Positions 1,500 to 29,974 of a stretch of 64,000 nucleotides of DNA are shown piece after piece. The position numbers and the translations under genes are program-made. How positions within the stretch are numbered: position 1 is the first letter of the stretch; each line of letters starts with the position of its first letter. Source of the stretch: Cupriavidus neocaledonicus (GTDB taxonomy: Bacteria; Pseudomonadota; Gammaproteobacteria; Burkholderiales; Burkholderiaceae); assembly GCF_000372525.1 (NCBI RefSeq), contig NZ_AQUR01000100.1, forward strand, positions 62,001 through 126,000, given 5' to 3'. The notes beneath the pieces were generated by a model. That model made no database searches, had not been told where the DNA came from, and saw only the letters and a program-made list of their open reading frames with translations.

Positions 1500-1946
1500 T
1501 CACTCGGCGCGCTCTTCCGGCCAGTCGCGGATATAGGCCTTGAGCATCTTGTTCTCGAAGCTCTGGTCCTCGACCACGGCCTTGGCGACGTCATAGAACG
1601 AGATCACGCCCATCAGCGTGCGGTTGTCGAGCACCGGCAGGTAGCGGGTGTGACGCTCCAGCATCATCCGGCGAACCTCGTTGACGTCGGTTTCCATGGT
1701 GCAGGTCAGCGGCGCATCGTCCATCACCTTGCGGATGCTGCTGGTGCCGATGTTGCCGTTGTTGCGGGCCAGGGTCTCGATGATCTCGCGGAAGGTCAGC
1801 ATGCCGACCAGGTCGCCGTATTCCATCACCACCAGCGAGCCGATGTCGTGCTCGGCCATGGTGTGCACGGCAACCAGCAAGGAGGTGTCAGGCGTCACGG
1901 TGTAGAGCGTATTGCCCTTGATCTGGAGGATGTCGCTGACTTTCAT
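1500..1946 (-). CDS. Two-CBS-domain protein
   Basis: Small cytoplasmic protein of 148 residues made of one pair of CBS domains (about residues 5-60 and 72-130). Such Bateman modules bind adenosyl ligands (AMP, ATP, SAM) and sense energy state; a stand-alone pair has no catalytic activity of its own. Signatures seen are GSLVVMEYGDLVGMLTFREI in the first domain and RYLPVLDNRTLMGVISFYDV in the second. The start MKVSDILQ at 1946 is preferred over a longer frame that would run to 2156, because homologues of this type begin at this motif and the upstream translation is Arg/Pro-rich noise. It is divergent from the sulfhydrylase gene at 2200; the intervening 253 bp contain no obvious riboswitch. Partner and ligand are unknown. 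Confidence 0.85.
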   Translation of the reverse strand: MKVSDILQIKGNTLYTVTPDTSLLVAVHTMAEHDIGSLVVMEYGDLVGMLTFREIIETLARNNGNIGTSSIRKVMDDAPLTCTMETDVNEVRRMMLERHTRYLPVLDNRTLMGVISFYDVAKAVVEDQSFENKMLKAYIRDWPEERAE

Positions 1947-2199
1947 GGTGGTCTCCGCTGCCTGCGCTCGGTCCGAGCTGGAACTGAAGGCATCGCCGCC
2001 GCCGAGGGCGCGACGATGCCGGTCACATTGTTGTCTGTATAAGGGTGTGCGGGCGCCTGGCCCGTTGGCCGATGCTAGCCCAAACCCGCCGCCAAAGTAA
2101 AGCGGGAGGCCGGTTTGCGGGCGGGCGGGAGGGTGAGCGCGCGTGGGCCGGCGCACGATGCTACGATGCTGGCCGGAGACAACTCAAGGCCCACCGACC

Positions 2200-3516
2200 A
2201 TGTCCGGAACCCGCTTCGACACGCTGGCGCTGCACGCAGGCGCCGCGCCCGACCCCGCCACCGGGGCCCGCGCCACCCCCATCCACCTGACCACGTCCTT
2301 CGTGTTCCGCGACAGCGAGCACGCCGCGTCGCTGTTCAACATGGAGCGCGCGGGGCACGTCTACTCCCGCATTTCCAATCCCACCGTGGCCGTGCTCGAG
2401 GAGCGCATCGCCGCGCTCGAGAACGGCGCCGGCGCCATCGCCACGGCCTCGGGCCAGGCCGCGCTGCACCTGGCGGTGGCCACGCTGATGGGCGCGGGCT
2501 CGCATATCGTGGCGTCGTCGGCGCTGTACGGCGGCTCGCACAACCTGCTGCACTACACGCTGCGCCGCTTCGGCATCGAGACCACCTTCGTCAAGGCGCG
2601 CGACCTCGACGCCTGGCGCGCCGCGATCCGGCCCAATACCCGGCTGCTGTTCGGCGAGACGCTAGGCAACCCCGGGCTGGACGTGCTCGACATCCCGACC
2701 CTGGCGCAACTGGGCCAGGACCACGGCATCCCGCTGCTGGTGGATTCCACCTTCACCACGCCCTACCTGCTGCGCCCGTTCGACCATGGCGCCGGCCTGC
2801 TCTACCACTCGGCGACGAAGTTCCTGGGCGGCCACGGCACCACCATCGGCGGCGTGCTGGTCGAGGGCGGCACCTTCGATTTCGAGGCCTCGGGGCGCTT
2901 CCCGGAGCTGTCCGAGCCCTACGAGGGCTTCCACAACATGGTGTTCACCGAGGAAAGCACGGTGGCGCCGTTCCTGCTGCGCGCGCGCCGCGAAGGCCTG
3001 CGCGATTTCGGCGCCTGCATGAACCCGATGGCGGCGTGGCAGCTGCTGCAGGGCGTGGAGACGCTGCCGCTGCGCATGAGCCGCCATGTCGACAACACCC
3101 GCAAGGTGGTGCAGTTCCTGGTATCGCATCCGATGGTCGAGTCGGTGTCGTACCCGGAGCTGGAATCGCACCCCGACTACGAACTGGCCAAGCGCCTGCT
3201 GCCGCGCGGCTGCGGCGCGGTGTTCAGCTTCAATTTGAAGGGCAACCGGCTGGCCGGCCAGCGCTTTATCGAAAGCCTGTCGCTGTTCTCGCACCTGGCC
3301 AATGTCGGCGACGCGCGCTCGCTGGTGATCCACCCGGCGTCGACCACGCACTTCCGCATGGACGCGGCCGCGCTGCAGTCGGCGGGCATCACCGAAGGGA
3401 CGATCCGGCTGTCGGTCGGCCTGGAAGATGCCGACGACCTGATCGACGATCTCAAGCGGGGCCTGAAGGCGGCCGAGAAGGCCATGGGCGCCGGCAACAA
3501 GGGAGGGCAAGCCTGA
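2200..3516 (+). CDS. O-acetyl/O-succinylhomoserine sulfhydrylase (MetY/MetZ type)
   Basis: PLP enzyme of the Cys/Met metabolism family, 438 residues, that makes homocysteine (or methionine) directly from activated homoserine and sulfide. The PLP lysine is K207 in the motif SATKFLGGHGT. Other family marks are YSRISNPTVAVLEERIAALE near residue 55 and the C-terminal IRLSVGLEDADDLIDDL. Length and the extended FDTLALHAG N-terminus fit the roughly 430-residue O-acetylhomoserine aminocarboxypropyltransferase (MetY) branch better than the 390-400 residue cystathionine synthases, but substrate choice (acetyl versus succinyl) cannot be read. The start is the ATG before SGTRFDTLALHAG. The stop overlaps the ATG of the following hydrolase by one base (TGATG), so the two are translationally coupled. 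Confidence 0.88.
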   Translation: MSGTRFDTLALHAGAAPDPATGARATPIHLTTSFVFRDSEHAASLFNMERAGHVYSRISNPTVAVLEERIAALENGAGAIATASGQAALHLAVATLMGAGSHIVASSALYGGSHNLLHYTLRRFGIETTFVKARDLDAWRAAIRPNTRLLFGETLGNPGLDVLDIPTLAQLGQDHGIPLLVDSTFTTPYLLRPFDHGAGLLYHSATKFLGGHGTTIGGVLVEGGTFDFEASGRFPELSEPYEGFHNMVFTEESTVAPFLLRARREGLRDFGACMNPMAAWQLLQGVETLPLRMSRHVDNTRKVVQFLVSHPMVESVSYPELESHPDYELAKRLLPRGCGAVFSFNLKGNRLAGQRFIESLSLFSHLANVGDARSLVIHPASTTHFRMDAAALQSAGITEGTIRLSVGLEDADDLIDDLKRGLKAAEKAMGAGNKGGQA

Positions 3517-4340
3517 TGGAACTGAACCTTGCCGGCCAGCCGGCCTACGCCTATACCGGCGGCAAACCGTTCGATCCCGCCCTGCCCTGCGCCGTCTTCG
3601 TCCACGGCGCGCAGAACGACCATAGCGTCTGGGCGCTGCAGACGCGCTGGTTTGCCAACCATGGCTTCTCGGTGCTGGCGGTGGACCTGCCCGGGCACAA
3701 CCGCAGCAAGGGCGCGCCGCTGGCCACGATCGAGGCCATGGCGGACTGGGTCATGGCGCTGGTGGCCGCCGCCGGCGTCACCGCGCCGGCCTTCGTGTTC
3801 GGCCACAGCATGGGCTCGCTGATCGCGCTGGAATGCGCGGCGCGGCATCCGCAGGCGGTGCGCGGCATCGGCCTGCTGGCCACGGCCTATCCGATGAAGG
3901 TCTCGGACGCGCTGCTGGACGCCTCGCTCAACCGCGAGGGCGACGCCATCGCCATGGTCAACACCTGGTCGCATTCCAGCCTCGCCAACAAGCCGTCGTC
4001 GCCCGGCCCGGGCGCCTGGATGCATGGCGGCAGCCAGCGGCTGATGGAACGGGTGTCGCGCAACAACCCGCAGGCGCATGTGTTCCATAACGATTTCTCG
4101 GCGTGCAACGCCTACGCCCATGGCGAAGAAGCCGCCGCGGCGGCGGCGTGCCCGGCGCTGTTCATCACCGGCAGCAAGGACATGATGACCTCGCCCAAGG
4201 CGGCCCAGGCACTGGCCGGCAAGATGCGCAGCGCCAGCGTGGTGGCGGTTCCGTGCGGCCATGCGCTGATGGGCGAGCGTCCGGATGAAGTGCTGGATGC
4301 GCTGGCGGCATTCGCGCGCAAGGTGGTGGCGGCGGGCTGA
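3516..4340 (+). CDS. Alpha/beta hydrolase
   Basis: Cytoplasmic alpha/beta-hydrolase of 274 residues. The catalytic triad is readable: nucleophile S98 in GHSMG, acid D222 in GSKDMM, and H249 in PCGHALMG. The oxyanion loop is VFVHGAQNDHSVW near residue 30. Substrate is unknown; candidates are esters or thioesters. Its start codon overlaps the stop of the sulfhydrylase gene, so it is translated in the same operon, which hints at a role linked to activated homoserine or sulfur metabolism (inference from position only). No signal peptide. It is followed by 98 bp before the DUF962 gene. Confidence 0.85.
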   Translation: MELNLAGQPAYAYTGGKPFDPALPCAVFVHGAQNDHSVWALQTRWFANHGFSVLAVDLPGHNRSKGAPLATIEAMADWVMALVAAAGVTAPAFVFGHSMGSLIALECAARHPQAVRGIGLLATAYPMKVSDALLDASLNREGDAIAMVNTWSHSSLANKPSSPGPGAWMHGGSQRLMERVSRNNPQAHVFHNDFSACNAYAHGEEAAAAAACPALFITGSKDMMTSPKAAQALAGKMRSASVVAVPCGHALMGERPDEVLDALAAFARKVVAAG

Positions 4341-4438
4341 CGCCGCCCCGCCCGGACGGCCTGCCACGCCGGCGGCCGTCCCGCCACGTCCCGGCGGAAG
4401 GTCTACACTGCAGCAAACAAGACCTGCCGGAGACAGCC

Positions 4439-4756
4439 ATGGCCCACGCCCGCACGCGCGAGTTCGAGAATTTCGCGGCCTTCTATCCCTACTACCTGAG
4501 CGAACACCAGAACCGTACCTGCAGGCGGCTGCATTTTGCCGGGTCGACGGTGGCGCTGCTGTGCCTGGTGGCGCTGGTCGTGACCGGCACTGCCTGGTGG
4601 CTGCTCGCCGCGGTGGTGGCGGGCTATGCGTTCGCCTGGGTCGGGCACTTCGGCTTCGAGAAGAACCGGCCGGCTACGTTCCGGCATCCCGTCTATAGCC
4701 TGATGGGGGATTGGGTGATGTATTTCGATATCTGCAGGGGGAGGATTCCGTTTTGA
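4439..4756 (+). CDS. DUF962 (Mpo1-like) membrane protein
   Basis: Small membrane protein of 105 residues with the DUF962/YGL010w-Mpo1 signature: an N-terminal FENFAAFYPYYLSEHQN with conserved His, a following RRLHFAGS, then two hydrophobic segments (about residues 36-54 and 58-72), and HFGFEKNRPATF with HPVYSLMGDW near the end. Yeast Mpo1 is an Fe(II)-dependent dioxygenase in phytosphingosine alpha-oxidation, and the conserved His residues are kept here, but the bacterial role is not established. The ATG at 4439 follows CCGGAGACAGCC, a reasonable ribosome site. It appears monocistronic; the gene-free island follows directly. Confidence 0.85.
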   Translation: MAHARTREFENFAAFYPYYLSEHQNRTCRRLHFAGSTVALLCLVALVVTGTAWWLLAAVVAGYAFAWVGHFGFEKNRPATFRHPVYSLMGDWVMYFDICRGRIPF

Positions 4757-4849
4757 GGGGGGACGGGTCTTGGCGCCTATTGGGAGTAGTCGCTGTTTGT
4801 GACCTTTGGCCGAACGCCACAACCGCAAGCGCTATCTGAGTCTCAACGT

Positions 4850-4886
4850 GTTACCCATGTGAGTGAACTCGTTTGTTACCCATGTG
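4850..4886. repeat. Direct repeat pair, possible IS-end remnant
   Basis: Two exact copies of GTTACCCATGTG start 25 bp apart (4850 and 4875). Closely spaced repeats of this kind are typical of the multiple transposase-binding ends of IS21/IS481-like elements. No matching inverted copy or transposase gene was found in the window, so this would be a solo relic. The element type is inference. Confidence 0.4.
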
Positions 4887-5466
4887 GTTGCTCCGTACAG
4901 CCTATGCGGCTGGCAATCAATTCCACGGTGTTGGTGGTTCGGGCGGCGGTGCTTTCCGTTTGGGCGTGGTTGCCCGTTCGACCCTGCTACGCCATGTGAG
5001 TCCGGGATAGTGCCTGCGATCACCCACTGTTGAACAATCCCAATGAGAGTGTAGGCCGCCTGCTGCCGGCCATATCGCAGGCACGCCTGCGGCTGCTGCG
5101 CAGGCTCGATTGCGCTCTCGCGCGTGGAGCGTCTTGCGCTTAGCGAGCCAAAGGCATTGTGCGATTCCACCAGAGTAAAAAGCCGACAGCGCCAAGCGAG
5201 CGCAGCGATGCGTACCGCGCCAGAGCCCACACCCCGCGATAGGGCCGGCGCGCAGCGCAGCCGAAGGCGTTCCTACGACACGGCCAGCAGCAGGGGCCAC
5301 TCCGCGCTCTGGGCTCGTTCAACCATCATTCCAACGCCCCTACCACCGTCGTGCACCACCGCGGCAGGCAGTCCGGCTATGTGAGGAAGCAAAGCCCCGT
5401 ACGAAAACCCAGCGCCCCCTACGATAAGACATGCCGCCCGCAGGGCAGCCAACGCGCTTTTTGGTT

Positions 5467-9655: not shown

Positions 9656-10534
9656 TCAGCGGCGCAGTTCGGTGTGGCGCAGTTCGGTCTGGCGCAGTTC
9701 GGTCTGGATAAAGGCCGCGACGTGCTCGAGCAGCTCGTCGAGATGGCCGCGCAGCACGACGAAGCCCGCATGCTGCGCCAGCGTGGTCTCGTCCATGTAC
9801 AGCGCCCGGTTGATCTCGATCTGCAGGCTGTGGCGCCGCTGCGCCGGATCCGCATACGCGCGGATCAGCTGCGCACCCTTGTACGGCCAGTTGATGGCCA
9901 CCCGGTAACCGAGGCTGCGCAGGCACTCGGCCACCAGTTCGATGAACCCCGCCGAGCAGGTCGAGCCGTCGCCGTTGCTGACCACGAAATCCGGGCGCGC
10001 GGCGCCGTTGTCGACGTTCATCGCATTGCCGCGCGACTTCATCGAATGGCAGTCGAGATGCCACACCGCGCCGCAGCGCGCATGGTGCTGCGCCAGCAGC
10101 CCGCACAGCGCGGCGTGGTACGGGTCGTAGTAGGTCTTGAGCAGGTATTCCGCCATGTGCGGCGACAGGGTCGCGGCATAGACCGGCACGCCCGGCAGCG
10201 CCAGCCGGCGCAGCACGCCCATGCCGCGACCGGACTTGTCGCTGGGGCGCACGGTGTAGGGCATGGCGCCATCGATCAGGTCGGGATCGATATCGTCGCG
10301 GGCGCGGTTGACGTCGACCAGCCAGCGCGGGAAGTCGGCGCACAGCAAGGTGCCGCCCACCCGCGGCGCATGCGCGAACAGCTGGTCGACATAGGCGTCC
10401 CAGCCCGACAGCAAGGCCTCGGGGGGCGCCGCCAGCGGCAGGGTCTCGGCATGCAGCAGGCCGCTGTGCGGGGAATCCACCACCAGCGGCAGCGCCACCC
10501 CGGCCGGTTCGGTCAGCGAAAACGGAAGCGTCAT
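9656..10534 (-). CDS. N-formylglutamate amidohydrolase family protein
   Basis: 292-residue member of the FGase family (HutG-like), zinc-type hydrolases that cleave N-formyl or N-acyl amino acids. Readable marks are VVDSPHSGLLH near residue 18, the LVDVNRARDDIDPDL segment near 72, HLDCHSMKSRG near 158, and LQIEINRALYMDE near 236. No other histidine-utilisation genes are nearby, so the substrate is not necessarily formylglutamate. Its start lies 2 bp after the porin stop on the same strand, making it the last gene of the transporter-porin operon. The C-terminus carries three TELR repeats encoded by a 15-nt tandem repeat. Confidence 0.85.
   Translation of the reverse strand: MTLPFSLTEPAGVALPLVVDSPHSGLLHAETLPLAAPPEALLSGWDAYVDQLFAHAPRVGGTLLCADFPRWLVDVNRARDDIDPDLIDGAMPYTVRPSDKSGRGMGVLRRLALPGVPVYAATLSPHMAEYLLKTYYDPYHAALCGLLAQHHARCGAVWHLDCHSMKSRGNAMNVDNGAARPDFVVSNGDGSTCSAGFIELVAECLRSLGYRVAINWPYKGAQLIRAYADPAQRRHSLQIEINRALYMDETTLAQHAGFVVLRGHLDELLEHVAAFIQTELRQTELRHTELRR
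9661..9705. repeat. 3 x 15-nt tandem repeat inside amidohydrolase C-terminus
   Basis: Three in-frame copies of a 15-nt unit (GGCGCAGTTCGGTCT, first copy with one change) encode the repeated peptide Q/H-T-E-L-R at the very end of the amidohydrolase. The unit is a multiple of three, so copy-number change would lengthen or shorten the tail without a frameshift. Confidence 0.85.
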
Positions 10535-10536
10535 GG

Positions 10537-11574
10537 TCAGAATTTGTGCTGGATGCCGACGCCCACCGTGGTCACGGTGTCGCCGGACTTGTGCGAGTTG
10601 GGATCCTCGCGATCGAAGAAGACGTAGGGCATGGTGCGCTTGCTCAGGCTGTAGCCGTAGCCGGCCTGCACCTTGCTGAGCCGGCCCTGCGGGTCGCGTT
10701 GCACCGCGCGCTGCATGTAGTTGACGGTGAGCTTGTGCGCGCCGTACGGCACCGAGAAGCCGACCAGCCAGTACGGCACGTCGGTGCGCGTGGTCGCAGT
10801 GCCGGCGTAGCGGTCGCGCCCGACGATGCCGTAGAGGTTGACTACGGTGAAGTCATACGAAGCCAGCGCCTGCACCTTGTCGCGGAAATCGTTGGCCACC
10901 AGGCCGCCGCTCTTGGCATCGCGCGAATAGCCCAGGCCTGCGGCGAACTTGCCGGCGGCGTAGTTCAGGCCCAGGTCGAACTGGCGGAAATCATCCTCGG
11001 CCTGCACCGGCGATCTGGCGTTCGGCGTGGCCGGGTCCGGCCCCGCCAGGTTCATGCGCGCCCGCACCGAGAAGCCGCCGAAGCTCGGCGTCATGTAGCC
11101 GAGCGCATTCGACACGCGATTGCGCGCGTTCAGCACCCGGGTGCCGATCGCGGTGGCGCCCGCATCGTGGATGGCGAAGTCGATGTTCTGCGTCACCTGC
11201 GAATAGATCGGCGAGCCCACGATCGTGGCCGAATCCAGCCGGCCCAGCGCGATCGCGCCGAAGCCGCCCTGCAGGCCGACGAAGGCATTGCGGAACTGCG
11301 GGTTGGTGGCGACGCCGTTGTCGGCGCCGAAGCCCTGCTCCAGGCCGAATGCCGCGCGCAGGCCGCCGCCCAGCTCTTCGCTGCCGCGCAGGCCCCAGCG
11401 CGAGGCGTTGTCCGTCATCTGCGTGCCCCCGCCATCGGGCCCCTTCTGGTATTCGATGTCGGTGTCGATGCGGCCGTACAGCGTCACCGTGGCGTCGGCC
11501 GCGGCCGACAGCAGCGCCAGCGCGCCGCCGAGGCAGGCGCGTGCGAGCGGGCGCCGGGTGTGGATACCGTTCAT
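10537..11574 (-). CDS. Gram-negative porin (trimeric, OmpC/Omp32-like)
   Basis: Outer-membrane porin precursor of 345 residues. A signal peptide (about 1-28, ending AAADA) precedes the mature start TVTLYGRIDTDIEY, a classic betaproteobacterial porin beginning. It has alternating beta-strand sequence throughout and terminates in Phe (GVGIQHKF), the BamA-recognised C-terminal signature. The start at 11574 is supported by AGGAGA 8 nt upstream. It lies between the ATPase genes of a peptide ABC transporter (173 bp upstream) and the amidohydrolase (2 bp downstream), all on the same strand, so it likely supplies outer-membrane entry for the same solute. Confidence 0.92.
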   Translation of the reverse strand: MNGIHTRRPLARACLGGALALLSAAADATVTLYGRIDTDIEYQKGPDGGGTQMTDNASRWGLRGSEELGGGLRAAFGLEQGFGADNGVATNPQFRNAFVGLQGGFGAIALGRLDSATIVGSPIYSQVTQNIDFAIHDAGATAIGTRVLNARNRVSNALGYMTPSFGGFSVRARMNLAGPDPATPNARSPVQAEDDFRQFDLGLNYAAGKFAAGLGYSRDAKSGGLVANDFRDKVQALASYDFTVVNLYGIVGRDRYAGTATTRTDVPYWLVGFSVPYGAHKLTVNYMQRAVQRDPQGRLSKVQAGYGYSLSKRTMPYVFFDREDPNSHKSGDTVTTVGVGIQHKF

Positions 11575-11669
11575 GCTGTTGCTCTCCTGTCGTGGTCTGT
11601 CATGCAAGAAATCCCCCCTCTGTGGTCCGACTGCCGCGTGGTCTGCCCGCGCAGCGCGCACGCACCCGC

Positions 11670-11715
11670 CCATCCCGCGCGGGCGGGATGGAACCTTCGA
11701 TCGGGTTCGATCGGG
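11670..11715. promoter_or_regulatory. Hairpin and tandem repeat upstream of porin
   Basis: In the 173-bp gap between the ABC ATPase and the porin lies a perfect 9-bp inverted repeat (CCATCCCGC 11670-11678, GCGGGATGG 11683-11691). On its upstream side is a 10-nt tandem repeat (TTCGATCGGG at 11696-11705 and 11706-11715). There is no T run on the transcribed strand, so it is not a canonical terminator. It could be an RNA-stability element or operator that adjusts porin level relative to the transporter. Confidence 0.4.
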
Positions 11716-11747: not shown

Positions 11748-12707
11748 CTAGTCATTCAGGTGGCAGGCGGACAGGCGTCCACCGATATCGCGCAGCAGCG
11801 GCACCTGCGTCATGCAGCGCGCGCTCGCGTGCGGGCAGCGCGGATGGAAGGCGCAGCCACCGGGCGGCGCCAGCGGGCTGGGCAGTTCGCCGCGGATGGG
11901 TTGGTGCGCGGGCGGACTGGCGCCCAGGCGCGGCGCGTCGGCCAGCAACGCGCGGGTATAGGGATGGTTGGGCGCGGCGAACACCTCGCGCGCGGGGCCG
12001 CTTTCGACAATGCGGCCCAGGTACATGATCACCACGCGGTCCGACATATGCTCCACCACCGCCAGGTTGTGGCTGATGAAGACATAGGTCAGCGCGTGCT
12101 CGCGCCGCAGCTGCATGAACAGGTTGATGATCTGCGCCTGCACCGAGACATCGAGCGCCGACACGGCCTCGTCGCAGATCAGCAGGCGCGGGCGCAGCGC
12201 CAGCGCGCGCGCGATCGCCACGCGCTGGCGCTGGCCGCCGGAGAACTCGTGCGGATAGCGCTCGGCATAGCCGCGATCGAGCCCCACTTGCTGGAGCAGC
12301 TCGCCGGCGGCCGCGGCGGCACGCGAGCGCTTGACCAGCCCGTGGTAGACCGCGCCCTCGGTAATGGCCTGGCCGATGCGCAGGCGCGGGTTCAGCGACG
12401 CATAGGGATTCTGGAACACCATCTGCACCGCCCGGTGATAGGCGGCCGAAGCGAGGTCGGTGCGCTGGCCTTGCCACGCGATCTCGCCGCCCGTCTGCGG
12501 CAGCAGGCCGGCCAGTATGCGCCCCAGCGTGGACTTGCCGCAGCCCGACTCGCCCACCACGCCCAGCACCTCGCCCTGGCGCACCTGCAGCGAGACATCG
12601 TTGACGGCATGCACCGCCTGCGCCGGCTTGCCGGCCATGCGCGCGAGCAGGCCGGGCTTGAGCAGAAAGCGTTTCTGCAGGTTGTGCGCTTCGAGCATGA
12701 CCGTCAT
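11748..12707 (-). CDS. Peptide-type ABC transporter ATPase (DppF/OppF-like)
   Basis: Cytoplasmic ATPase subunit of 319 residues. Walker A is GESGCGKST, the ABC signature is SGGQRQR, Walker B is LLICDEAVSALD, and the H-loop is FISHNLAV. The C-terminal oligopeptide/dipeptide-specific extension has the Cys-containing CAFHPRCPHASARC cluster typical of OppF/DppF. The start [14 protein letters not shown] at 12707 overlaps the stop of the partner ATPase by 4 bp (ATGA). It pairs with the gene at 12704-13666 to energise the two permeases. Confidence 0.93.
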   Translation of the reverse strand: MTVMLEAHNLQKRFLLKPGLLARMAGKPAQAVHAVNDVSLQVRQGEVLGVVGESGCGKSTLGRILAGLLPQTGGEIAWQGQRTDLASAAYHRAVQMVFQNPYASLNPRLRIGQAITEGAVYHGLVKRSRAAAAAGELLQQVGLDRGYAERYPHEFSGGQRQRVAIARALALRPRLLICDEAVSALDVSVQAQIINLFMQLRREHALTYVFISHNLAVVEHMSDRVVIMYLGRIVESGPAREVFAAPNHPYTRALLADAPRLGASPPAHQPIRGELPSPLAPPGGCAFHPRCPHASARCMTQVPLLRDIGGRLSACHLND

Positions 12708-13666
12708 GCCGCCTCCAGGGGATAAAAGCAGCGCAGCGTGCGGCCGCGCACAGTGGTTTCGACAGGGACCTGGGCGCACGCGGGACGCGCGCGCGGACAG
12801 CGCGGCGCGAAGGCGCAGCCCGGCGGCAGCGCGGCCAGCGCGGGAGTCGCGCCCGGAATCGCGCGCAGCGTGGCGCCGCGCATTGCGGGCGTTGGCAGCG
12901 AATCGAGCAGGCCGCGCGTGTACGGATGCAGCGGCCGGCTGATCAGTTCTGCAACGGGACCCTGCTCCACCACCCGGCCCGCGTACATCACGCAGACCCG
13001 GTCGACCAGGTCCTTGACCACGGCAAGGTCGTGGCTGATCCAGATCGCGGCGGCGCCGGTCTCGCGCACCAGTTGCTTCATCTCGTAGAGGATCTGCGCC
13101 TGGATGGTGACGTCGAGCGCGGTGGTGGGCTCGTCGGCGATGATCAGGTCGGGCCGGTTGATCAGCGCATTGGCGATCGCCACGCGCTGGCGCATGCCGC
13201 CGGACAGCTCGTGCGGATAGGCGCGCATGCGCTCCCGCGGCGCCGGGATGCCGACCCGCGCCAGCGCATCGACCGCCTGCGCATGCGCCTGTGCGCGGGT
13301 GCGGCGGTGGTGCACCAGCACGGTCTCGGCAAGCTGGTCGCCCACGCGCATCACGGGGTTCAGCGACATCATCGGGTCCTGGAACACCATCGCGACGCGG
13401 TCGCCGCGCAGCGCCTGCCACTGGCGCGGCGAGCACGCCAGCAGCTCCTGCCCCTTGAAGCGCACCGAGCCGCCGGTGACGCGCCCGGGCGGGTCCAGCA
13501 GGTTCATCAGCGAGAACGCCGTCACCGACTTGCCCGAGCCGGACTCGCCCACGATCCCCAGGATCTCGCCCGGCTCCAGTGAGAACGACACGCCGTCGAC
13601 CGCCTTCACCGCGCCGTGCGCGAACGCGAAGCTGGTGCTCAGGCCGGAAACTTCCAGTAGTGCCAT
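12704..13666 (-). CDS. Peptide-type ABC transporter ATPase (DppD/OppD-like)
   Basis: ATPase subunit of 320 residues. Walker A is GESGSGKS, the signature is SGGMRQR, Walker B is [13 protein letters not shown], and the switch His lies in WISHDLAV. The C-terminal [14 protein letters not shown] is the Fe-S-binding-like cluster found in OppD/DppD ATPases. Starts 10 bp after the DppC-like permease stop and overlaps the second ATPase by 4 bp. Confidence 0.93.
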
Positions 13667-13676
13667 GCCGGGCTCC

Positions 13677-14624
13677 TTATGCTTCCAGCCGCGGGTTGAG
13701 CACGCGGCGCAGGCGGTCGCCCACCAGGTTGATCGAGCCGATCAGCAGCACCAGCGCCACGCCCGGGAACACGCTGATCCAGTACTTGTTCGACAGCATG
13801 TATTCGAAGCCGTTGGCGATCAGCATGCCCAGCGACGGCTGCGTGCGCGGCAGGCCGATGCCGAGGAAGCTCATGGTGGCCTCGAGCGTGATCGCATGCG
13901 CGATCTGCAGCGTGCCGGTCACCACCAGCGGCGCCATGCAGTTTGGCAGGATATGGCGGAACATCACGCGCAGCGCCGGCAGCCCCTGTCCCAGCGCGGC
14001 CTCGACATACTCCTTGCGCCGCTCCACCTGCGCCGCGCCGCGCACGGTGCGGGCAAAGTAAGCCCATTGCACGATCACCAGCGCCAGCAGGGTCTTGTCG
14101 ACACCCTGCCCCAGCACCGCCAACAGGATCAGCGCCACCAGCACCGCCGGCAGGCTCAGCTGCAGGTCGACCACGCGCATGATGGCCGCATCGACCACCC
14201 CGCCGAAGTAGGCCGCGGCCAGCCCCACCGCGCTGCCCGCCACCAGCGCCACCACCGCGCTGATCACGCCCACGCCCACGCTGATGCGGATGCCGTAGAA
14301 GATGGCGCTGAGCAGGTCGCGCCCGGCGCCGTCGGTGCCGAGCCAGTAGTGCGCCTGGCCTTCATAGCCGGTGCTGCCGGGCGGCAGCTCGGAATCGATC
14401 ACCGACACCGTGGCAAGGTCATAGGGGTTCTGCGGGCTGAGCGCATGGGCCAGCACGGCCACCAGCAGCAGCACCAGCAACAATGCCAGCGCGGCGGCGG
14501 CGACGCGATTGGCGCAGAAGCGCCGCAGCAGCGCAGGCCGCGCCGGCGGCGCGGCGGCTGGCGCCGGCGCGAGCGAGGGGAGCGCGGGCACGGCTTCATC
14601 GTTTTCGGATAGAGGCAGGGACAT
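13677..14624 (-). CDS. Peptide-type ABC transporter permease (DppC/OppC-like)
   Basis: Inner-membrane permease of 315 residues. A Pro/Ala-rich cytoplasmic N-terminus (1-35) leads into the first span (about 42-62), followed by the OppC-type periplasmic stretch ending WLGTDGAGRDLLSAIFYG and five further spans. The EAA loop that docks the ATPase is YVEAALGQGLPALRVMFRHILPN near residue 200. The start MSLPLSENDEAVP at 14624 is preferred to the long frame reaching 14855, which overlaps the DppB-like gene and has no membrane character. Confidence 0.92.
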   Translation of the reverse strand: MSLPLSENDEAVPALPSLAPAPAAAPPARPALLRRFCANRVAAAALALLLVLLLVAVLAHALSPQNPYDLATVSVIDSELPPGSTGYEGQAHYWLGTDGAGRDLLSAIFYGIRISVGVGVISAVVALVAGSAVGLAAAYFGGVVDAAIMRVVDLQLSLPAVLVALILLAVLGQGVDKTLLALVIVQWAYFARTVRGAAQVERRKEYVEAALGQGLPALRVMFRHILPNCMAPLVVTGTLQIAHAITLEATMSFLGIGLPRTQPSLGMLIANGFEYMLSNKYWISVFPGVALVLLIGSINLVGDRLRRVLNPRLEA

Positions 14625-14689: not shown

Positions 14690-15661
14690 CTAGGCCGCCT
14701 TGTGCCGCAGGCGCGGGTCGAGCACCACGTACAGCAGGTCGACCACCAGGTTCAGCACCACGAACAGCAGCAGCGTGACCAGCAGGTACGCCACCACCAC
14801 CGGGCGGTCCAGCGCCAGCACGGAATCGATGATCAGCTTGCCCATGCCGGGCCACGAGAACACCGACTCGGTCACCACCGAGAAGGCGATCAGGTGGCCG
14901 AACTCCAGCCCGACCACGGTCACGATCGGGATCAGCACATTGGGCACCACGTGGCGCAGCACCAGCCGCGCGCCGCCCACGCCCTTGGCGCGCGCAAACT
15001 TGATGTACTCCTGCCCCGCCACCTCGCGCGTGCCGGCCTCGGTCAGCCGCGCCACCAGCGAGATCTTGAACAGCGACAAGGTCAGTGCCGGCAGCAGCAG
15101 GAAGCGGATGCCGTCCCAGCTGGTCACCGACAGCGGCACGCCCAGCACCGTGCTGACCGGCCCGCGACCGCCCGACGGCAGCCAGCCCAGGTTCACCGAG
15201 AACACCAGGATGCCGATCATGCCGATCCAGAAAGTGGGCATGATCACGCCGCCGAGCGAGGCCGCCATCAGCAGCCGCGCCAGCCGGCTGTGCGGCTTCA
15301 GGCCGGCATAGACGCCCATCGGGATGCCGATGCCGAGCGACAGCAGCAGCGCCGTCACCGCCAGTTCCAGCGTGGCCGGCACGCGGCTGACGATCAGCTC
15401 GATCGCGGGCCGGTTGTAGACGAAGGAGTCGCCGAGGTCGCCGCGCAGCGCGCCCGCGAGAAAGCGCAGGTACTGCTGCGGCACGGGCAGGTCCAGGCCG
15501 AGCGCGTGGCGCGCCTCGCTGATCTCCTGCTCGGTGGCGGTCGGGCTGACCAGCAGGTGCACCGGATCGCCGATCAGGTTGACCGCGCAGAACGTCAGCA
15601 CCGACATGATCCAGAGCACCGCGATGCTCTGCAGCAGCCGTTTCAGTAGGGTTTCAAGCAT
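14690..15661 (-). CDS. Peptide-type ABC transporter permease (DppB/OppB-like)
   Basis: Permease of 323 residues starting MLETLLKRLLQSIAVLWIMS, the usual DppB opening with its first membrane span at 9-30. Six spans in total. The EAA motif is EYIKFARAKGVGGARLVLRHVVPN near residue 220. It has the DppB-type ending (VDLLYVVLDPRLR). It lies 39 bp after the substrate-binding protein gene and 65 bp before the DppC-like gene. Together with DppC-like it forms the channel. Confidence 0.92.
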   Translation of the reverse strand: MLETLLKRLLQSIAVLWIMSVLTFCAVNLIGDPVHLLVSPTATEQEISEARHALGLDLPVPQQYLRFLAGALRGDLGDSFVYNRPAIELIVSRVPATLELAVTALLLSLGIGIPMGVYAGLKPHSRLARLLMAASLGGVIMPTFWIGMIGILVFSVNLGWLPSGGRGPVSTVLGVPLSVTSWDGIRFLLLPALTLSLFKISLVARLTEAGTREVAGQEYIKFARAKGVGGARLVLRHVVPNVLIPIVTVVGLEFGHLIAFSVVTESVFSWPGMGKLIIDSVLALDRPVVVAYLLVTLLLFVVLNLVVDLLYVVLDPRLRHKAA

Positions 15662-15700: not shown

Positions 15701-17329
15701 TCAGCGTCGCGGCGCGGCCGGCGGCGCCGGGCGGATGTTGCCGGCATAGGTGAAACCGTCGCTGCGCGGCTGCACCACGAGGCCGTCGCGATAGGCCCAG
15801 GCGGCACGCAGGTGATGCAGCGGGACGATGCCGGCGTCGGCCGCCAGCCGTTCCGCCGCGCCCTGCTGCGCCAGTTCGCGCGGGGCCGGCGCCATGGTGC
15901 GCATGGCCTGCCCGATCAGCGCGTCGACGGCCGCGTTGGCATAGCCGCTGCGGTTGTTGGCGCCCAGGCCGGCGGCCTTGTCCTGCGCATGCGCCACCGC
16001 CACCAGCGGCTCGAGCGAATCGCCGCTGACCGCGCCGATGCCGAGCAGGAAGGCGCTGAACTCGGGCTTGCCGCCGGCGCCGCCCGAGGTGGCGCGGGTG
16101 ATATAGACCGAATACGGCAGCGTGCGCACCTCGGTGCGGATGCCGGCGCGGGTCAGCATCTGGCCGACCGCCTCGCAGGTCTTGGCGTCGTTCAGGTAGC
16201 GGTCGTTGGGGCAATGCAGCGTCAGGCGGAAGCCCTGCGGATAGCCGGCCTGCGCCAGCAGCCAGCGCGCCCGCTCGACGTCGGCGCGCGGCGCCGGCAC
16301 CGCCGGGGCGAAGCCGAAAAAGCCCTGCGGCACCATCTGCCCGGCCGGCACGGAATCGCCCTTGGTCACGCGCGCCGCGATCAGGTCGCGGTCGATCGCC
16401 AGGCTGATCGCCTGCCGCACCCGCACGTCGCGCAACGGATTGGCCGCCAGCGGCTGGCCCGCATGGTCCTGCACATAGGGCGAGACCGCGCGGGCCTGGT
16501 CCAGCTGCAGGTAGTTCAGCATGTACGAGGTCGCGGAGACGACGCGGATGCGGCCGTTGGTACGCGCAAAGGCCTCGGCAATGCTCGCCGACGAGGCGTC
16601 GATCACGTCGACCAGTCCGGACAGCAGCGCCGAGGCCCGCGCCGGCTCCTTCGGGATGAACTGGAACACCACCCGCTGCCACGGCTGCGGCCCGCCCCAG
16701 TAGCCCGGATTGCGCGACAGCGTCAGCTGCTGGCCATGCTCCCACGCCACCAGCCGGTACGGGCCGGTGCCGATGGCGGCGCTGCCATGGGCGAAATCGG
16801 CCTCGCGCACGCCCGCGCCCAGCGAGCGCGGCAGCATCGCCACCATGCCCAGGTTCTGCGGCAGCACCGGGTTGGGCGAGCGCGTGCGCACACGCAGCGT
16901 CAGCGGCCCGGTGACCTCGACCGCCGCCACCGACTTCAGGTAGGTGCGGAAGGTGCGCGCGCCCGGCAGCTTCAGCGCGCGCTCGATCGAGTAGCGCGCA
17001 TCCTCGGCGGTAAACGGCTCGCCATTGCTGAAGCGCACGCCGGGACGCAGCTGGAACTCCCAGGTGCGGTCGTCCAGCTGGCGCCAGCCGGTGGCCAGCA
17101 GCGGCACGGGGCGCAGCGCGTTGTCCAGGCCGACCAGGGTTTCGTAGACATGGCCCCACAGGTTGCGTCCGGCGGCGTCGAGCACATGGGGATCGGCGGC
17201 GCTGATCTCGGCCTTGTAGCCGATGCGCAGGTCGGCTGCGTGAGCGGTGCTCGCGCCGGCAAGCAGCGCCGCGCTGGCCAAGGCAGCGGCGGCAAGGCGC
17301 GACGCCAGGTTGACGACGGGTCTGGGCAT
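15701..17329 (-). CDS. ABC transporter substrate-binding protein, family 5
   Basis: Periplasmic binding protein of the peptide/nickel family (SBP_bac_5), 542 residues from the chosen ATG. The signal peptide (about 1-32) ends ASTAHA, before ADLRIGYKAEI. Typical family segments are GRNLWGHVYETLVGLD near residue 55 and FTAEDARYSIERAL near 106. The ligand may be a peptide, opine or other oligomer; it cannot be read from sequence. An in-frame ATG at 17356 would add nine residues; neither start has a strong ribosome site, so the start is uncertain. First gene of the operon that runs through the permeases, ATPases, porin and amidohydrolase. Confidence 0.9.
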   Translation of the reverse strand: MPRPVVNLASRLAAAALASAALLAGASTAHAADLRIGYKAEISAADPHVLDAAGRNLWGHVYETLVGLDNALRPVPLLATGWRQLDDRTWEFQLRPGVRFSNGEPFTAEDARYSIERALKLPGARTFRTYLKSVAAVEVTGPLTLRVRTRSPNPVLPQNLGMVAMLPRSLGAGVREADFAHGSAAIGTGPYRLVAWEHGQQLTLSRNPGYWGGPQPWQRVVFQFIPKEPARASALLSGLVDVIDASSASIAEAFARTNGRIRVVSATSYMLNYLQLDQARAVSPYVQDHAGQPLAANPLRDVRVRQAISLAIDRDLIAARVTKGDSVPAGQMVPQGFFGFAPAVPAPRADVERARWLLAQAGYPQGFRLTLHCPNDRYLNDAKTCEAVGQMLTRAGIRTEVRTLPYSVYITRATSGGAGGKPEFSAFLLGIGAVSGDSLEPLVAVAHAQDKAAGLGANNRSGYANAAVDALIGQAMRTMAPAPRELAQQGAAERLAADAGIVPLHHLRAAWAYRDGLVVQPRSDGFTYAGNIRPAPPAAPRR

Positions 17330-17369
17330 GGTGGGGTGGTTCGCTTCCCGATACATTGTTTCATTCAGT

Positions 17370-17511: not shown

Positions 17512-18270
17512 TCAGCTGCCCGCGTAGCCGAGTGCCCGCGACAGGCTGGCGGCCTCCGCCACCACCATCGCCACATGGCTGTCCAGCGCCTGCTGCGAGG
17601 TGCGGCTGGCCGGGCTGGCAATGCTCAGCGATGCCACCGCCGCGCCGCTGTGGTCGCGCAGCGGCGCGGCGGCCGAGACCGCGTCGGCATCGCGCTCGCC
17701 CACCGAGACCGCATAGCCGGCGGCTCGGATCGCCGCCAGTTCGTCGCGCAGCGCCTGTGGCTCGATGATGGTCTTGGCGGTGAAGCGTTCCAGCTGCTGC
17801 GCCAGCACGGCCTCCAGCACCTCGGGTGCGGCGAAGGCCAGCAGCAGCTTGCCGGAGGCCCCCACATGCAGCGGCCGCCGGTTGCCGATCTCGGTATGCA
17901 CGCGCACCGACTGCGTCGACTCATGCCGCGCCACGCAGACCGACTCGAGCCCGTCGCGCACGCGCACGATCACGTTTTCGCCGCAGGCCGCGCCGATCGC
18001 CGCCAGCCGCGGACCCACCAGCTTGACCAGGTCGAACTGTTCACGCGCGGCGTTGCCCACCAGCAGCGCGTTGTAGCTGAGCTTGTAAACCGCCGCCGGC
18101 GACTCGCGCGCGATCAGGCCGCGGTGTTCGAGCGTGGTCAGCAGCCGGAACGCGCGCGCCTTGGTCAGTCCGGCGCGCCGTGCCAGCTCGGTCACGCCCA
18201 GCGATGGGTGTTCGGCCACCAGCATCAGCAGGCCCAGGGCCTCGTCCACCGCTTCAACGATGTAGGTCAT
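17512..18270 (-). CDS. IclR-family transcriptional regulator
   Basis: Regulator of 252 residues. An N-terminal winged helix-turn-helix (about 8-70, with LGVTELARRAGLTKARAFRL as the recognition region) is followed by the IclR effector domain (about 80-245; GASGKLLLAFAAPEV and the AAPLRDHSGAAVASLSIA signature). The start MTYIVEAVDEAL at 18270 has AAGGAT just upstream. The same-strand transporter operon lies downstream, past a terminator; a thiolase-like/DUF35 pair is divergent. IclR proteins usually control adjacent catabolic genes and respond to a small carboxylate, so either neighbour is a likely target. Confidence 0.9.
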   Translation of the reverse strand: MTYIVEAVDEALGLLMLVAEHPSLGVTELARRAGLTKARAFRLLTTLEHRGLIARESPAAVYKLSYNALLVGNAAREQFDLVKLVGPRLAAIGAACGENVIVRVRDGLESVCVARHESTQSVRVHTEIGNRRPLHVGASGKLLLAFAAPEVLEAVLAQQLERFTAKTIIEPQALRDELAAIRAAGYAVSVGERDADAVSAAAPLRDHSGAAVASLSIASPASRTSQQALDSHVAMVVAEAASLSRALGYAGS

Positions 18271-18384: not shown

Positions 18385-18415
18385 CCGAATACACCCTTCG
18401 GCACTTCCGAATACA
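18385..18415. promoter_or_regulatory. Candidate operator between iclR-type gene and thiolase-like gene
   Basis: Two copies of CCGAATACA (18385-18393 and 18407-18415) are spaced exactly 22 bp start to start, about two helical turns. They lie in the 240-bp divergent gap between the regulator and the thiolase-like gene. The helical phasing and location suggest a regulator-binding site acting on one or both promoters. Confidence 0.45.
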
Positions 18416-18510: not shown

Positions 18511-19677
18511 ATGAGCATCAACGGCAAGGCCTACATCGTCGGGGCCTACGAGCACCCGACCCGCAAGGCACCCGACAAGACCGTGGCGCAACTGCATGCC
18601 GAGAGCGCCAAGGGCGCGCTGCAGGACGCCGGCCTGACGCTGGCCGACGTCGACGGCTATTTCTGCGCCGGCGACGCCCCCGGGCTGGGCGCGGTCAACA
18701 TGGTCGACTACCTCGGCCTGAAGGTGCGCCATGTCGATTCCACCGATACCGGCGGTTCGGCCTACCTGGTACATGTCTCGCACGCCGCGCAGGCGATTGC
18801 CGCCGGCAAGTGCAACGTCGCGCTGATCACACTGGCGGGCCGCCCGCGCTCGGAAGGCTCCACCGGCACGCAGGCGCGCAACTGGGGTGCCAACCTGCCC
18901 GACCTGCCGTTCGAAAGCCCGTTCAGCCCGGTCACGGTCAACCTGTACGCGATGGCGGCAATGCGCCATATGCACGAGTACGGCACCACCGCCGAGCAGC
19001 TCGCCTGGGTCAAGGTGGCGGCGTCGCACCACGCCCAGCACAACCCCCACGCGATGCTGCGCGACGTGGTCACGGTCGAAGACGTGCTGAACTCGCCGAT
19101 GATCTCGGATCCGCTGCACAAGCTGGACTGCTGCGTAGTCTCTGACGGCGGCGGCGCGCTGGTGGTGGCGCGACCGGAGATCGCCGCCACGCTGCGGCGG
19201 CCGAAGGTGAAGATCCGTGGCGCCGGCGAATACATCAAGGGCCAGCTTGGCGGCGAAGTCGACCTGAGCTGGTCGGGCGCGCGCTTCTCGGGCGCGACGG
19301 CGTTTGCCGAAGCGGGCGTGACCCCGGCCGACATCAAGTACGCGTCGATCTACGACAGCTTCACCATCACCGTGCTGATGCAGCTGGAGGACCTGGGCTT
19401 CTGCAACAAGGGCGAAGGCGGCAGGTTCGTCGCCGACGGCAACCTGATTTCGGGCGTCGGCAAGCTCCCGTTCAATACCGATGGCGGCGGCCTGTGCAAC
19501 AACCACCCGGCCAACCGCGGCGGCATCACCAAGGTCATCGAAGCCGTGCGCCAGCTGCGCGGCGAGGCCCACCCCGCGGTGCAGGTCGCCAATTGCGACC
19601 TCGCGCTGGCGCAGGGCACCGGCGGCTACCTGGGCTCGCGCCACGGCAGCGCCACCCTGATCCTCGAACGTGAATAA
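18511..19677 (+). CDS. Thiolase-fold (SCP2-type) protein lacking the nucleophilic Cys
   Basis: 388-residue thiolase-fold protein that acts on CoA esters. Its N-terminal half aligns with thiolases, but at the usual VNNNC nucleophile position it reads VDSTDTGGSA, placing D79 where Cys should be. The C-terminal motif GGGLCNNHPANRGG keeps the His-containing loop. Such Cys-less members paired with DUF35 proteins include steroid side-chain retro-aldolases (Ltp2 type), so a C-C lyase or a non-thiolytic acyl-CoA role is more likely than thiolysis (inference). The start at 18511 has AGGAG 7 nt upstream. The DUF35 gene follows after 17 bp and almost certainly encodes its partner. Confidence 0.85.
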   Translation: MSINGKAYIVGAYEHPTRKAPDKTVAQLHAESAKGALQDAGLTLADVDGYFCAGDAPGLGAVNMVDYLGLKVRHVDSTDTGGSAYLVHVSHAAQAIAAGKCNVALITLAGRPRSEGSTGTQARNWGANLPDLPFESPFSPVTVNLYAMAAMRHMHEYGTTAEQLAWVKVAASHHAQHNPHAMLRDVVTVEDVLNSPMISDPLHKLDCCVVSDGGGALVVARPEIAATLRRPKVKIRGAGEYIKGQLGGEVDLSWSGARFSGATAFAEAGVTPADIKYASIYDSFTITVLMQLEDLGFCNKGEGGRFVADGNLISGVGKLPFNTDGGGLCNNHPANRGGITKVIEAVRQLRGEAHPAVQVANCDLALAQGTGGYLGSRHGSATLILERE

Positions 19678-19694
19678 AGCGCGGGAGCACTGAC

Positions 19695-20093
19695 ATGACG
19701 ACCCCCCACATCCCCACCGTCTACAAGGCGCCCGACGAACAGCCCGACAACCTGCCGTTCTGGCAGGCCGCGCGCGAGGGCCAGCTGCTGGTCAAGGTCT
19801 GCGACGACTGCGGCAAGCCGCACTGGTATCCGCGCGTGCTGTGTCCGTTCTGCATGGGCACCACCTCGTGGCAGCCGGCCAGCGGCCGCGGCACCATCTA
19901 CAGCTACAGCGTGACGCGCCGCGCCGGCCCCAACCCGTTCTGCATCGCCTACGTGAAGCTGGACGAAGGCGTGACCATGATGACCCATATCGTCGACTGC
20001 GATCTCGACACGGTGCGGATCGGCCAGAAGGTGCAGGTCAAGTTCTCGCCCAGCGAGGGCGGCGCACCGGTGCCGACCTTCACGCTCGCCTGA
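19695..20093 (+). CDS. DUF35 zinc-ribbon/OB-fold protein
   Basis: 132-residue acyl-CoA-associated OB-fold protein. A rubredoxin-like zinc ribbon is formed by C36, C39, C50 and C53 (CDDC and CPFC), followed by the OB-fold with GRGTIYSYSVTRRA near residue 65. These proteins act as obligate partners of thiolase-fold enzymes in archaea and actinobacteria, bringing acyl-CoA to the active site. It follows the Cys-less thiolase-like gene by 17 bp with GGGAG before its ATG. It ends 18 bp from the convergent pirin gene. Confidence 0.9.
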   Translation: MTTPHIPTVYKAPDEQPDNLPFWQAAREGQLLVKVCDDCGKPHWYPRVLCPFCMGTTSWQPASGRGTIYSYSVTRRAGPNPFCIAYVKLDEGVTMMTHIVDCDLDTVRIGQKVQVKFSPSEGGAPVPTFTLA

Positions 20094-28525: not shown

Positions 28526-29974
28526 TCAGCGCGGCGGCATCGCCGGTGCCTCCGGCTGCCAGGCCACGCGCCAGCGCGGCGCGGGCGCGGCGTCGGGCCA
28601 GCGGCGATGCATGCCCAGCCCGGCGGCCAGCACCAGGGTGTCGCCGGCCCACAGCAGCGGCAGCCAGGCGCGGCGCCAGGCCGGGATGCCGGCTTCCTGG
28701 CAGGCCTGCTTCAGCGCGCGCGCGGGGCCGCCGGGGCGCAGCACGATACGCTCGCCGCCGGCGCGCGCGGCCAGGCGCAAGGGCTGGCGCAGCACCGCTT
28801 CGGGCGCGCCGAAGGTGTCGTCGCGGATGAAATGGAGCTCGCCGCGCCAGGCCGGCACGACGATGCGGGCTTCTCCACGCCAGTCCAGCAGCACCGGTGC
28901 CGGCGCCACGGCCGGCGGCGGCACGCAGGCCAGCACGCGCTCGCGGAAGCGGCGCAGCACCAGGCCTTCATGCGCGATGGCCGGCTCGCCGCCCGCGTGC
29001 GCGATCAGCTGTTCCCGCATCGCCGCCAGCCGCGCGGTGGACGGGGCGCGCACGCCGAGGTCGCGCAGCCACAGGCGCAGCACGGCATCGGCCTGCGCCG
29101 CGGGCAGCGCGCGCAGGCCGGGCAGGTCGAGCTCGGACAATGTGTCGGGGTCGCGGCCGGCACGCGCCAGCGTCGCCAGTGTGGTGGCGGCCAGCTGGTC
29201 GATCAGCGCGCCGACCTGGGCAAAATGCGCGGCCGCCTGCACCACGTTGAGCGCCAGCGCCGGAAACGCCGCCTGCAGCGCCGGCAGTTGCTGGCGCAAG
29301 GCGTTGCGCGCGTAGCGGCCGTCGGCATTGGAGGGATCGTCGACCCACTGCAGCGTGTTGGCGGCGCAGTAGGCCTCGATGCCGGCGCGCGGCACGTCCA
29401 GCCAGGGACGCAGCAGCATCACGCCACTGCCCTCAGCCAGCGGGCGCATCGCCGGCATGCCCGCCATGCCGGCCACGCCGGCGCCGCGGAACAGCCGCAG
29501 CAGCACGGTCTCGACCTGGTCGTCCTGGTGGTGGGCAAACAGCAGCAGGCGCGCGCCGCTGTCGGCGCACATCGCCGCCAGCGCGGCATAGCGCGCGCGG
29601 CGCGCGGCGGCCTCGACGCCCTCGCACGCCGCCGGCCGCACCGGCACGCGCCGCACGAAATAGCCCACCTGCCACTGCGCGCACAGCGCGGCGCAGAAGC
29701 GGTCCCATTCGTCGGCCTCGGCCTGCAGGCCGTGGTGGACATGCAGCGCCACCACGCGCGCGCCATCGCCCGCCTGCGCCACCGCCGCGCGCGCGGCGTG
29801 CAGCAGCGCGACCGAGTCGCGCCCGCCCGACAGCGCCACCGCGACCGTCGGCGCCGCCGCCGTGGCAGCGCCAGAAACAACAAAGGCCGCACCGGCCTGC
29901 AGGGCCTGTGCGACCTTGTCGGTCAGCCGGGCGGACGGGTCAGTCCTGGGCGCCAGTTTCCTTGAACTTGCCAT
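28526..29974 (-). CDS. tilS: tRNA(Ile)-lysidine synthase
   Basis: ATP-dependent enzyme of 482 residues that converts C34 of tRNA-Ile(CAU) to lysidine so that it reads AUA and is charged with isoleucine. The N-terminal PP-loop [13 protein letters not shown] is at about 48-60. Further marks are [19 protein letters not shown] near 145, the [17 protein letters not shown] substrate loop near 212, and TilS C-terminal domains. The start at 29974 overlaps the end of accA by 35 bp; no later start leaves the PP-loop context intact with a better ribosome site, so it is kept with some doubt. Confidence 0.93.

Follow-up and report, generated by a model that had tools for sequence, protein, structure and literature searches.

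Retro-aldolases composed of a thiolase-fold protein and a DUF35 partner have been described for the bile acid aldolase CtSal/CtShy of Comamonas testosteroni (PDB 9MYR; PMC12329534) and for the steroid aldolase TcLtp2/ChsH2-DUF35 (PDB 6OK1). According to the CtSal report, this enzyme carries glycine at the position of the nucleophilic cysteine of thiolases and the backbone of that residue, Gly89, contacts the substrate hydroxyl; the catalytic base is Tyr302 in CtSal, where the Y302F exchange abolishes activity, and Tyr294 in TcLtp2, and the acid of CtSal is Cys304, the C304S variant being without detectable activity (PMC12329534). A further pair, IpfD/IpfE, is encoded on plasmid pIBU218 of Rhizorhabdus wittichii, in whose ibuprofen pathway a retro-aldolase step on a non-steroid coenzyme A (CoA) ester releases propionyl-CoA (PMC9195938). 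Here we describe a related gene pair in Cupriavidus neocaledonicus (assembly GCF_000372525.1), located in a 64 000-nucleotide stretch of contig NZ_AQUR01000100.1 (positions 62,001 to 126,000; hereafter the window). It consists of a gene for a thiolase-fold protein without the thiolase nucleophile and a DUF35 gene, and probably encodes a two-subunit C–C lyase, that is, a retro-aldolase acting on beta-hydroxyacyl-CoA, in which Tyr281 would be the base and His332 the acid.

An initial annotation made from the sequence alone had described a thiolase-like gene directly followed by a DUF35 gene, and both were found on the same (plus) strand, separated by 17 bp (Table 1). The thiolase-fold protein matched NCBIfam PRK08142 (NF006010) over positions 1–388 of 388 with 778.4 bits against a cut-off of 462, and PF22691 with 172 bits; the downstream protein matched PF01796 (76 bits) and PF12172 (45 bits). 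A single-chain model of the thiolase-fold protein based on 64 sequences had a mean predicted local distance difference test score (pLDDT) of 80 and a predicted template modelling score of 0.86. Its best VIA matches were CtSal (Z 47.6, root-mean-square deviation 2.4 over 364 residues), 4U4E, a putative thiolase of Sphaerobacter thermophilus (Z 46.3), and TcLtp2 (Z 46.1). Foldseek ranked 4U4E first, with CtSal and Ltp2 next. Among solved structures 4U4E was also closest in sequence (306 bits) and reads YDSF, Gly and THP at the active-site positions discussed below.

The string VDSTDTGGSA, in which aspartate had been proposed to stand at the position of the nucleophilic cysteine, is present as residues 75–84. 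The absence of the nucleophile was confirmed, but the alignments placed Gly82, the second glycine of TDTGG, at that position, and Asp79 three residues upstream of it. The cysteine of the Pyrococcus thiolase 7YVY aligned to Gly82 in phmmer and in a profile search (counted by eye), in both cases ungapped from Gly82 into the following helix; in the model, a helix begins at residue 81. In an alignment of 75 rows (60 regions chosen to span the match scores, three paralogues from the same genome, seven close relatives, four PDB chains and the window protein), seven further cysteine-containing rows had their cysteine in the Gly82 column, and Gly89 of CtSal, the second glycine of VDLGG, fell in the same column. 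In this alignment the second cysteine of SCP2-type thiolases (HDCF rows L140, L141 and L164) aligned with Ser283 and the CxGG cysteine of L083, a thiolase from the same genome, with Gly369, so that none of the three thiolase cysteine positions holds cysteine in the window protein. The Asp79 column contained 42 D, 38 E and one gap in 81 close sequences (at least 77% identical to the window protein); among the 75 diverse rows, 14 different residues occur there besides one gap. Because it lies outside the cysteine position and is variable, Asp79 was ruled out as a substitute nucleophile. A catalytic cysteine within the TDTGG loop was also rejected: the paralogue L082 has Cys80 (TECGG), but none of the 81 close sequences does (one has a gap). 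The suggested likeness to retro-aldolases lacking the cysteine held for the fold, the Gly/Tyr arrangement and the DUF35 partner, which are as in Sal and Ltp2, and failed for aspartate as the replacement.

The histidine of the thiolase HD motif is replaced by Tyr281 in a YDSF motif, equivalent to the catalytic tyrosine of the thiolase-fold/DUF35 retro-aldolases and present in all 81 close sequences, and the histidine of the GHP type is retained as His332 in NNHP. Neither proton donor of the characterised members is found, Ser283 occupying the place of CtSal Cys304 and His332 that of TcLtp2 Tyr344. Since the C304S variant of CtSal is inactive, Ser283 is a poor candidate for the acid and another residue would be needed. 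Besides His332, the neighbouring Cys329, invariant in all 64 rows of a close-relative alignment, is an alternative candidate proton donor. Gly82, YDSF and NNHP were each invariant (81/81), which, together with an approximate ratio of nonsynonymous to synonymous substitution rates (dN/dS) of 0.036, excludes a chance arrangement.

Across the 75 rows, the eight with Cys82 all have His281, and 66 of the 67 without it have Tyr281. The exception, L138, is the only row to combine serine at the cysteine position with histidine in the HD motif. When three plasmid proteins were added (78 rows), Gly82 was present in 67 of 69 Tyr rows (exceptions L142 and pUPO_thl), and position 332 was His or Tyr in 58 of the 69. 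Ten of the remaining 11 carry Cys or Asp at position 283, compared with seven, all Cys, among the 58. It thus seems that one of two sites, 283 or 332, retains a proton donor, as if the donor had moved between them, although this is a pattern rather than a test because nine of the 11 rows form one clade.

A tree of the 78 rows separated the 69 Tyr rows, including Sal, Ltp2 and IpfD, from nine His rows, which have the HD-motif histidine of Cys-dependent thiolases, on a branch with support of 100/100. The clade of the window protein had support of 100/100 and grouped with 25 rows including 4U4E (100/96 in the 75-row tree, 99/97 in the 78-row tree); 4U4E lies in this adjoining group, outside the window clade. 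CtSal reads YDCY and Gln352, and TcLtp2 reads YDHF with Tyr344 as acid; with YDSF and His332, and without a recognised steroid context, the window protein is neither of these and falls outside both the Sal and the Ltp2 clades. We infer that its mode of action is nevertheless like that of a thiolase-fold retro-aldolase. Archaeal and SCP2-type cysteine thiolases, BbsAB and PhlC share the fold, and 6ESQ and BbsB also have DUF35 partners, but 7YVY, L083 and L084 carry the nucleophilic cysteine and the HD motif, unlike the window protein. BbsB and PhlC presumably carry both as well.

IpfD reads DSEG, YDAF and GFY at the three active-site positions, sharing the glycine, the tyrosine and an OB-fold partner gene with the window pair; it differs in having tyrosine in the 332 region and in belonging to another subclade, where its long branch makes the placement unsure. 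In the plasmid record ipfD and the OB-fold gene are located between dioxygenase and AMP-binding (CoA ligase) genes. The gene order ipfABDEF agrees with the published locus numbers. The assignment of ipfD was derived from this order and from the locus numbers in the pathway paper (PMC9195938). As IpfD belongs to the ibuprofen pathway, at least one pair from the Tyr side functions outside steroid metabolism. The initial annotation had suggested that the substrate may be new; IpfD is a non-steroid precedent with the same Gly/Tyr arrangement and a retro-aldolase step (PMC9195938), and the importer and IclR genes are a weak clue to the substrate (see below). Two further features of the plasmid (L170) were recorded: the translation of IpfE (13829–14227) lacks the CxxC pairs of the zinc ribbon, and a second, Ltp2-like protein (YDHF, EAY) is encoded at 1539–5157 with OB-fold, enoyl-CoA hydratase-related and CaiB genes.

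By its profile match the pair is part of NCBIfam PRK08142, 'thiolase domain-containing protein', a catalogued and widespread subfamily named without a function. The term PRK08142 occurred in none of the open-licence papers searched, nor was anything on the subfamily or on 4U4E found there. In a phylum-wide sample of 299 genomes, 16 had a match above the family cut-off, as did 53 of 60 Cupriavidus genomes. In the genome of C. neocaledonicus itself the family profile matched four proteins in full, two of the PRK08142 subfamily and two with the catalytic cysteine, and a fifth only weakly, at 23 bits. The dN/dS value of the thiolase-fold gene, estimated like the others from nine syntenic Cupriavidus loci each compared with the window, was the lowest of six local genes (DUF35, 0.22; IclR, binding protein, OppB and pirin, 0.09 to 0.18).

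The DUF35 gene was directly downstream in 68 of 77 testable loci by a rule based on tblastn, in the other nine by the printed coordinates, and in all 80 loci under a relaxed rule. Its zinc-type cysteines, Cys36, 39, 50 and 53, were kept in 79–81 of the 81 sequences. The DUF35 protein of the window is encoded by a separate gene and has four cysteines, whereas that of CtShy is fused to MaoC and has a Cys3His1 finger in their place (PMC12329534). Because the Sal and Ltp2 systems form such complexes, the thiolase-fold protein is predicted to form one with its DUF35 partner, for which an alpha-beta-beta-alpha heterotetramer would be expected.

Genes adjacent to related pairs were counted in 56 loci of at least 16 kb (24 of the 80 loci were shorter and were left out) and in 40 control windows at fixed coordinates of 20 chosen genomes. 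Seven acyl-CoA-related families were considered: TctC, enoyl-CoA hydratase (ECH), CaiB, acyl-CoA dehydrogenase, MaoC, ADP-forming ligase and AMP-forming ligase. At least two of these were nearby in 30 of 56 loci compared with 7 of 40 control windows, a contrast that is indicative only because the profiles were built from the neighbours of the same loci and the control was unmatched to the locus genomes. Individually, TctC was found in 31/56 loci against 9/40 control windows, ECH in 21/56 against 4/40 and MaoC in 11/56 against 0/40; no clear enrichment over the control was seen for CaiB (17/56 against 7/40) or DUF2889. None of the seven was present in 15 of the 56 loci, including L001, a near-identical Cupriavidus locus. 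Hydratase neighbours would supply beta-hydroxyacyl-CoA, the type of substrate used by Sal and Ltp2. C. neocaledonicus has another copy of the pair elsewhere in its genome (L105; contig C68, about 2–15 kb), which lies within an acyl-CoA cluster comprising an ADP-forming-type CoA ligase, an acyl-CoA dehydrogenase, TctC, the pair, CaiB, three RraA-family proteins (aldolase/RraA) and an ECH-family protein, identities that come from Pfam, most NCBIfam matches being below cut-off. From the composition of this cluster, its substrates may be dicarboxylic acids that are branched and carry a hydroxy or keto group.

From the observed gene pair, fold, missing nucleophile, residue alignment, clade and neighbours we predict the reaction, the acid, the complex and the substrate as follows. 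The thiolase-fold subunit would bind a beta-hydroxyacyl-CoA, from whose beta-hydroxyl Tyr281 would remove the proton; retro-aldol cleavage of the Calpha–Cbeta bond would then release an aldehyde or ketone and leave a CoA enolate, which a proton donor, most likely His332, would protonate to acetyl- or propionyl-CoA. As the partners do in the complexes of Sal and Ltp2, DUF35 would bind the catalytic subunit and shape the pocket. The substrate would be a non-steroid acyl-CoA, probably with a hydroxyl that is not oxidisable for thiolysis.

Several observations weigh against this retro-aldolase reading. Cysteine thiolases scored only a small margin below the aldolases in the VIA comparison (Z 44.2 and lower). 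His332 lies in a stretch with pLDDT below 50 (residues 326–335), where the geometry is of low confidence, and its conservation alone is no argument for an acid role, as it is also the GHP histidine of thiolases; Ser283, for its part, is the residue with which CtSal is inactive. Sal, Ltp2 and IpfD all belong to other subclades of the Tyr side, and no measured activity for a member of the PRK08142 subfamily was found in the open-licence papers searched. No hydratase or CoA ligase is close to the pair at the window locus, and L001 has none of the seven families. The neighbour survey favours the loci, since its profiles derive from the neighbours of these same loci, which are moreover related to each other, and its p-values carry no correction for these points or for the unmatched control; short-chain dehydrogenases/reductases (25/56 loci against 5/40 control windows) would also suit a route of oxidation and thiolysis.

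The same residues would also serve the reverse, condensing reaction, so that the pair could instead be an acyl-CoA enzyme that forms bonds or acts non-hydrolytically in some other way, catalysing a synthetic aldol- or Claisen-type condensation or decarboxylating a malonyl-type CoA ester; a very slow malonyl-CoA decarboxylation is given for the relative TbSLP (PMC12329534). Such a role appears rather unlikely: CtSal showed no such decarboxylation in the same paper, and the acyl-CoA families and TctC uptake receptors around the loci suit breakdown. It is improbable that the protein is a thiolase or acyltransferase relying on another cysteine, for example Cys329 beside His332. Cys101, Cys207, Cys208, Cys298, Cys329 and Cys362 are indeed invariant in 64 of 64 rows, and Cys329 lies three positions ahead of the thiolase-type His332, but the positions of the catalytic cysteines of thiolases hold Gly82, Ser283 and Gly369, and that of the HD histidine an aldolase-like tyrosine. 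Loss of the canonical nucleophile, and the 15 loci with none of the seven families, would fit a protein without catalytic function, serving as a scaffold or pseudo-enzyme to hold DUF35 or CoA; against the invariant YDSF, NNHP and Gly82, the low dN/dS and a Gly/Tyr arrangement that is active in Sal and Ltp2, we give this little credence. A steroid substrate is unlikely, and a steroid side-chain aldolase outside the usual cluster very improbable: although the nearest characterised structures are steroid aldolases, the window protein belongs to a clade that includes neither Sal nor Ltp2, its DUF35 is stand-alone, unlike the MaoC fusion of Shy, none of the four full family matches in the genome is Sal- or Ltp2-like, and 30 neighbour proteins scanned gave general families only (FAD_binding_2 in L024 being broad), which are still compatible with steroid use, with no recognised steroid cluster at the locus, as already noted in the initial annotation.

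The pair faces a divergent IclR-family regulator gene; behind this gene come those of a family 5 binding protein, OppBCDF and a porin, and lastly that of an N-formylglutamate amidohydrolase family protein. The last scored 94 bits against a HutG cut-off of 279 and therefore perhaps acts on another amide. This importer/IclR context, taken as a pointer to the substrate in the initial annotation, is a weak clue to it. IclR and importer genes were beside the pair in one of 80 related loci (L001; the gene maps, from a codon-trained caller, miss some genes) and in 10 of 19 Cupriavidus regions chosen around high-scoring copies. The IclR gene (E ≤ 1e-90) was detected in 22 of 60 Cupriavidus genomes, that of the window included, with the pair adjacent in 11 and not in the other 11. 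The association is thus lineage-specific, and importer and IclR were rejected as pathway partners. In the 11 regions with IclR but without the pair (14–17 kb examined in each; L218 has a relative of 33% identity), IclR, the binding protein and OppBCDF were always present and the porin was present in 10. In L215 (G326:C1) IclR and pirin genes are adjacent with no pair between them, an empty site, so that both genes were probably acquired or lost together. On the side facing IclR, regions L216, L218, L222, L223 and L224 carry varying sets of AMP-dependent ligase, CaiB, TctC, MaoC and acyl-CoA dehydrogenase genes (part Pfam-checked), which hints weakly at acyl-CoA genes as targets of the regulator. 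In L218 an SCP2-type thiolase is also encoded there, by its C-terminal part (HDCF, GHP).

Between the IclR gene and the pair lies a palindrome, TTCGGnnnnnCCGAA, that 10 of the 11 aligned rows reproduce exactly, L090 having one change. It may be an IclR operator and is listed as a candidate site in Table 1. Two exact matches were found in the window where 0.06 would be expected by chance, the second far off at 28799; a longer form occurred four times in the genome and not in the control. Near the IclR gene of pair-less regions it was found in three of 11 (L218, L222 and L223) and not in the other eight. This distribution, the longer copies and the match at 28799 leave its role unsure.

Table 1. 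Coordinates of the thiolase-fold/DUF35 gene pair, active-site codons and surrounding features (positions in the window)
Feature	Position	Strand	Basis or remark
Thiolase-fold protein, 388 aa, predicted retro-aldolase catalytic subunit	18511..19677	+	NCBIfam PRK08142, PF22691, structure match
DUF35 protein (rubredoxin-like zinc ribbon and OB fold), 132 aa	19695..20093	+	PF12172, PF01796
Gly82 codon, position of the thiolase nucleophilic Cys	18754..18756	+	Alignments
Asp79 codon, nucleophile position supposed in the initial annotation, three residues upstream of the true one	18745..18747	+	Alignments
Tyr281 codon (YDSF), predicted catalytic base; equivalent to CtSal Tyr302, TcLtp2 Tyr294	19351..19353	+	Alignment
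Ser283 codon; equivalent to CtSal Cys304, TcLtp2 His296	19357..19359	+	Alignment
His332 codon (NNHP), predicted acid; equivalent to TcLtp2 Tyr344, CtSal Gln352, thiolase GHP His	19504..19506	+	Alignment
Cys329 codon, alternative acid or nucleophile candidate	19495..19497	+	Invariant, 64-row close-relative alignment
Candidate regulator site: direct repeat CCGAATACA (18385, 18407) and palindrome TTCGGcacttCCGAA (18397-18411)	18385..18415	.	Putative operator
IclR-family regulator, divergent to the pair	17512..18270	-	Open reading frame open to 18372; start 18270 inferred
Family 5 solute-binding protein	15701..17356	-	Pfam
OppB-type permease	14690..15661	-	Profile match
OppC-type permease	13677..14624	-	Start inferred
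OppD-type ATPase	12704..13666	-	Profile match
OppF-type ATPase	11748..12737	-	Start approximate
Porin	10537..11673	-	Pfam
N-formylglutamate amidohydrolase family protein	9656..10534	-	Below HutG cut-off

Taken more broadly, and tentatively, the PRK08142 pairs may represent a third active-site solution, with Tyr281/His332 beside the Tyr/Cys of Sal and the Tyr/Tyr of Ltp2, cleaving a non-steroid, probably branched beta-hydroxyacyl-CoA in soil and freshwater Proteobacteria, and the Gly/Tyr side of the family, to which they belong and which is large, would have retro-aldol cleavage, not thiolysis, as its common chemistry, so that many genes now called thiolase or acetyl-CoA acetyltransferase would prove to be misnamed. 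If the proposed reaction is wrong, the gene is a further member of a catalogued subfamily without a function. If it is right, a widespread uncharacterised pair would have a predicted reaction, and aldolases could be distinguished from thiolases in genomes by a simple rule of two residues, glycine at the cysteine site and tyrosine in the HD motif. Aldolases that act on CoA esters without a cofactor are also useful as catalysts.

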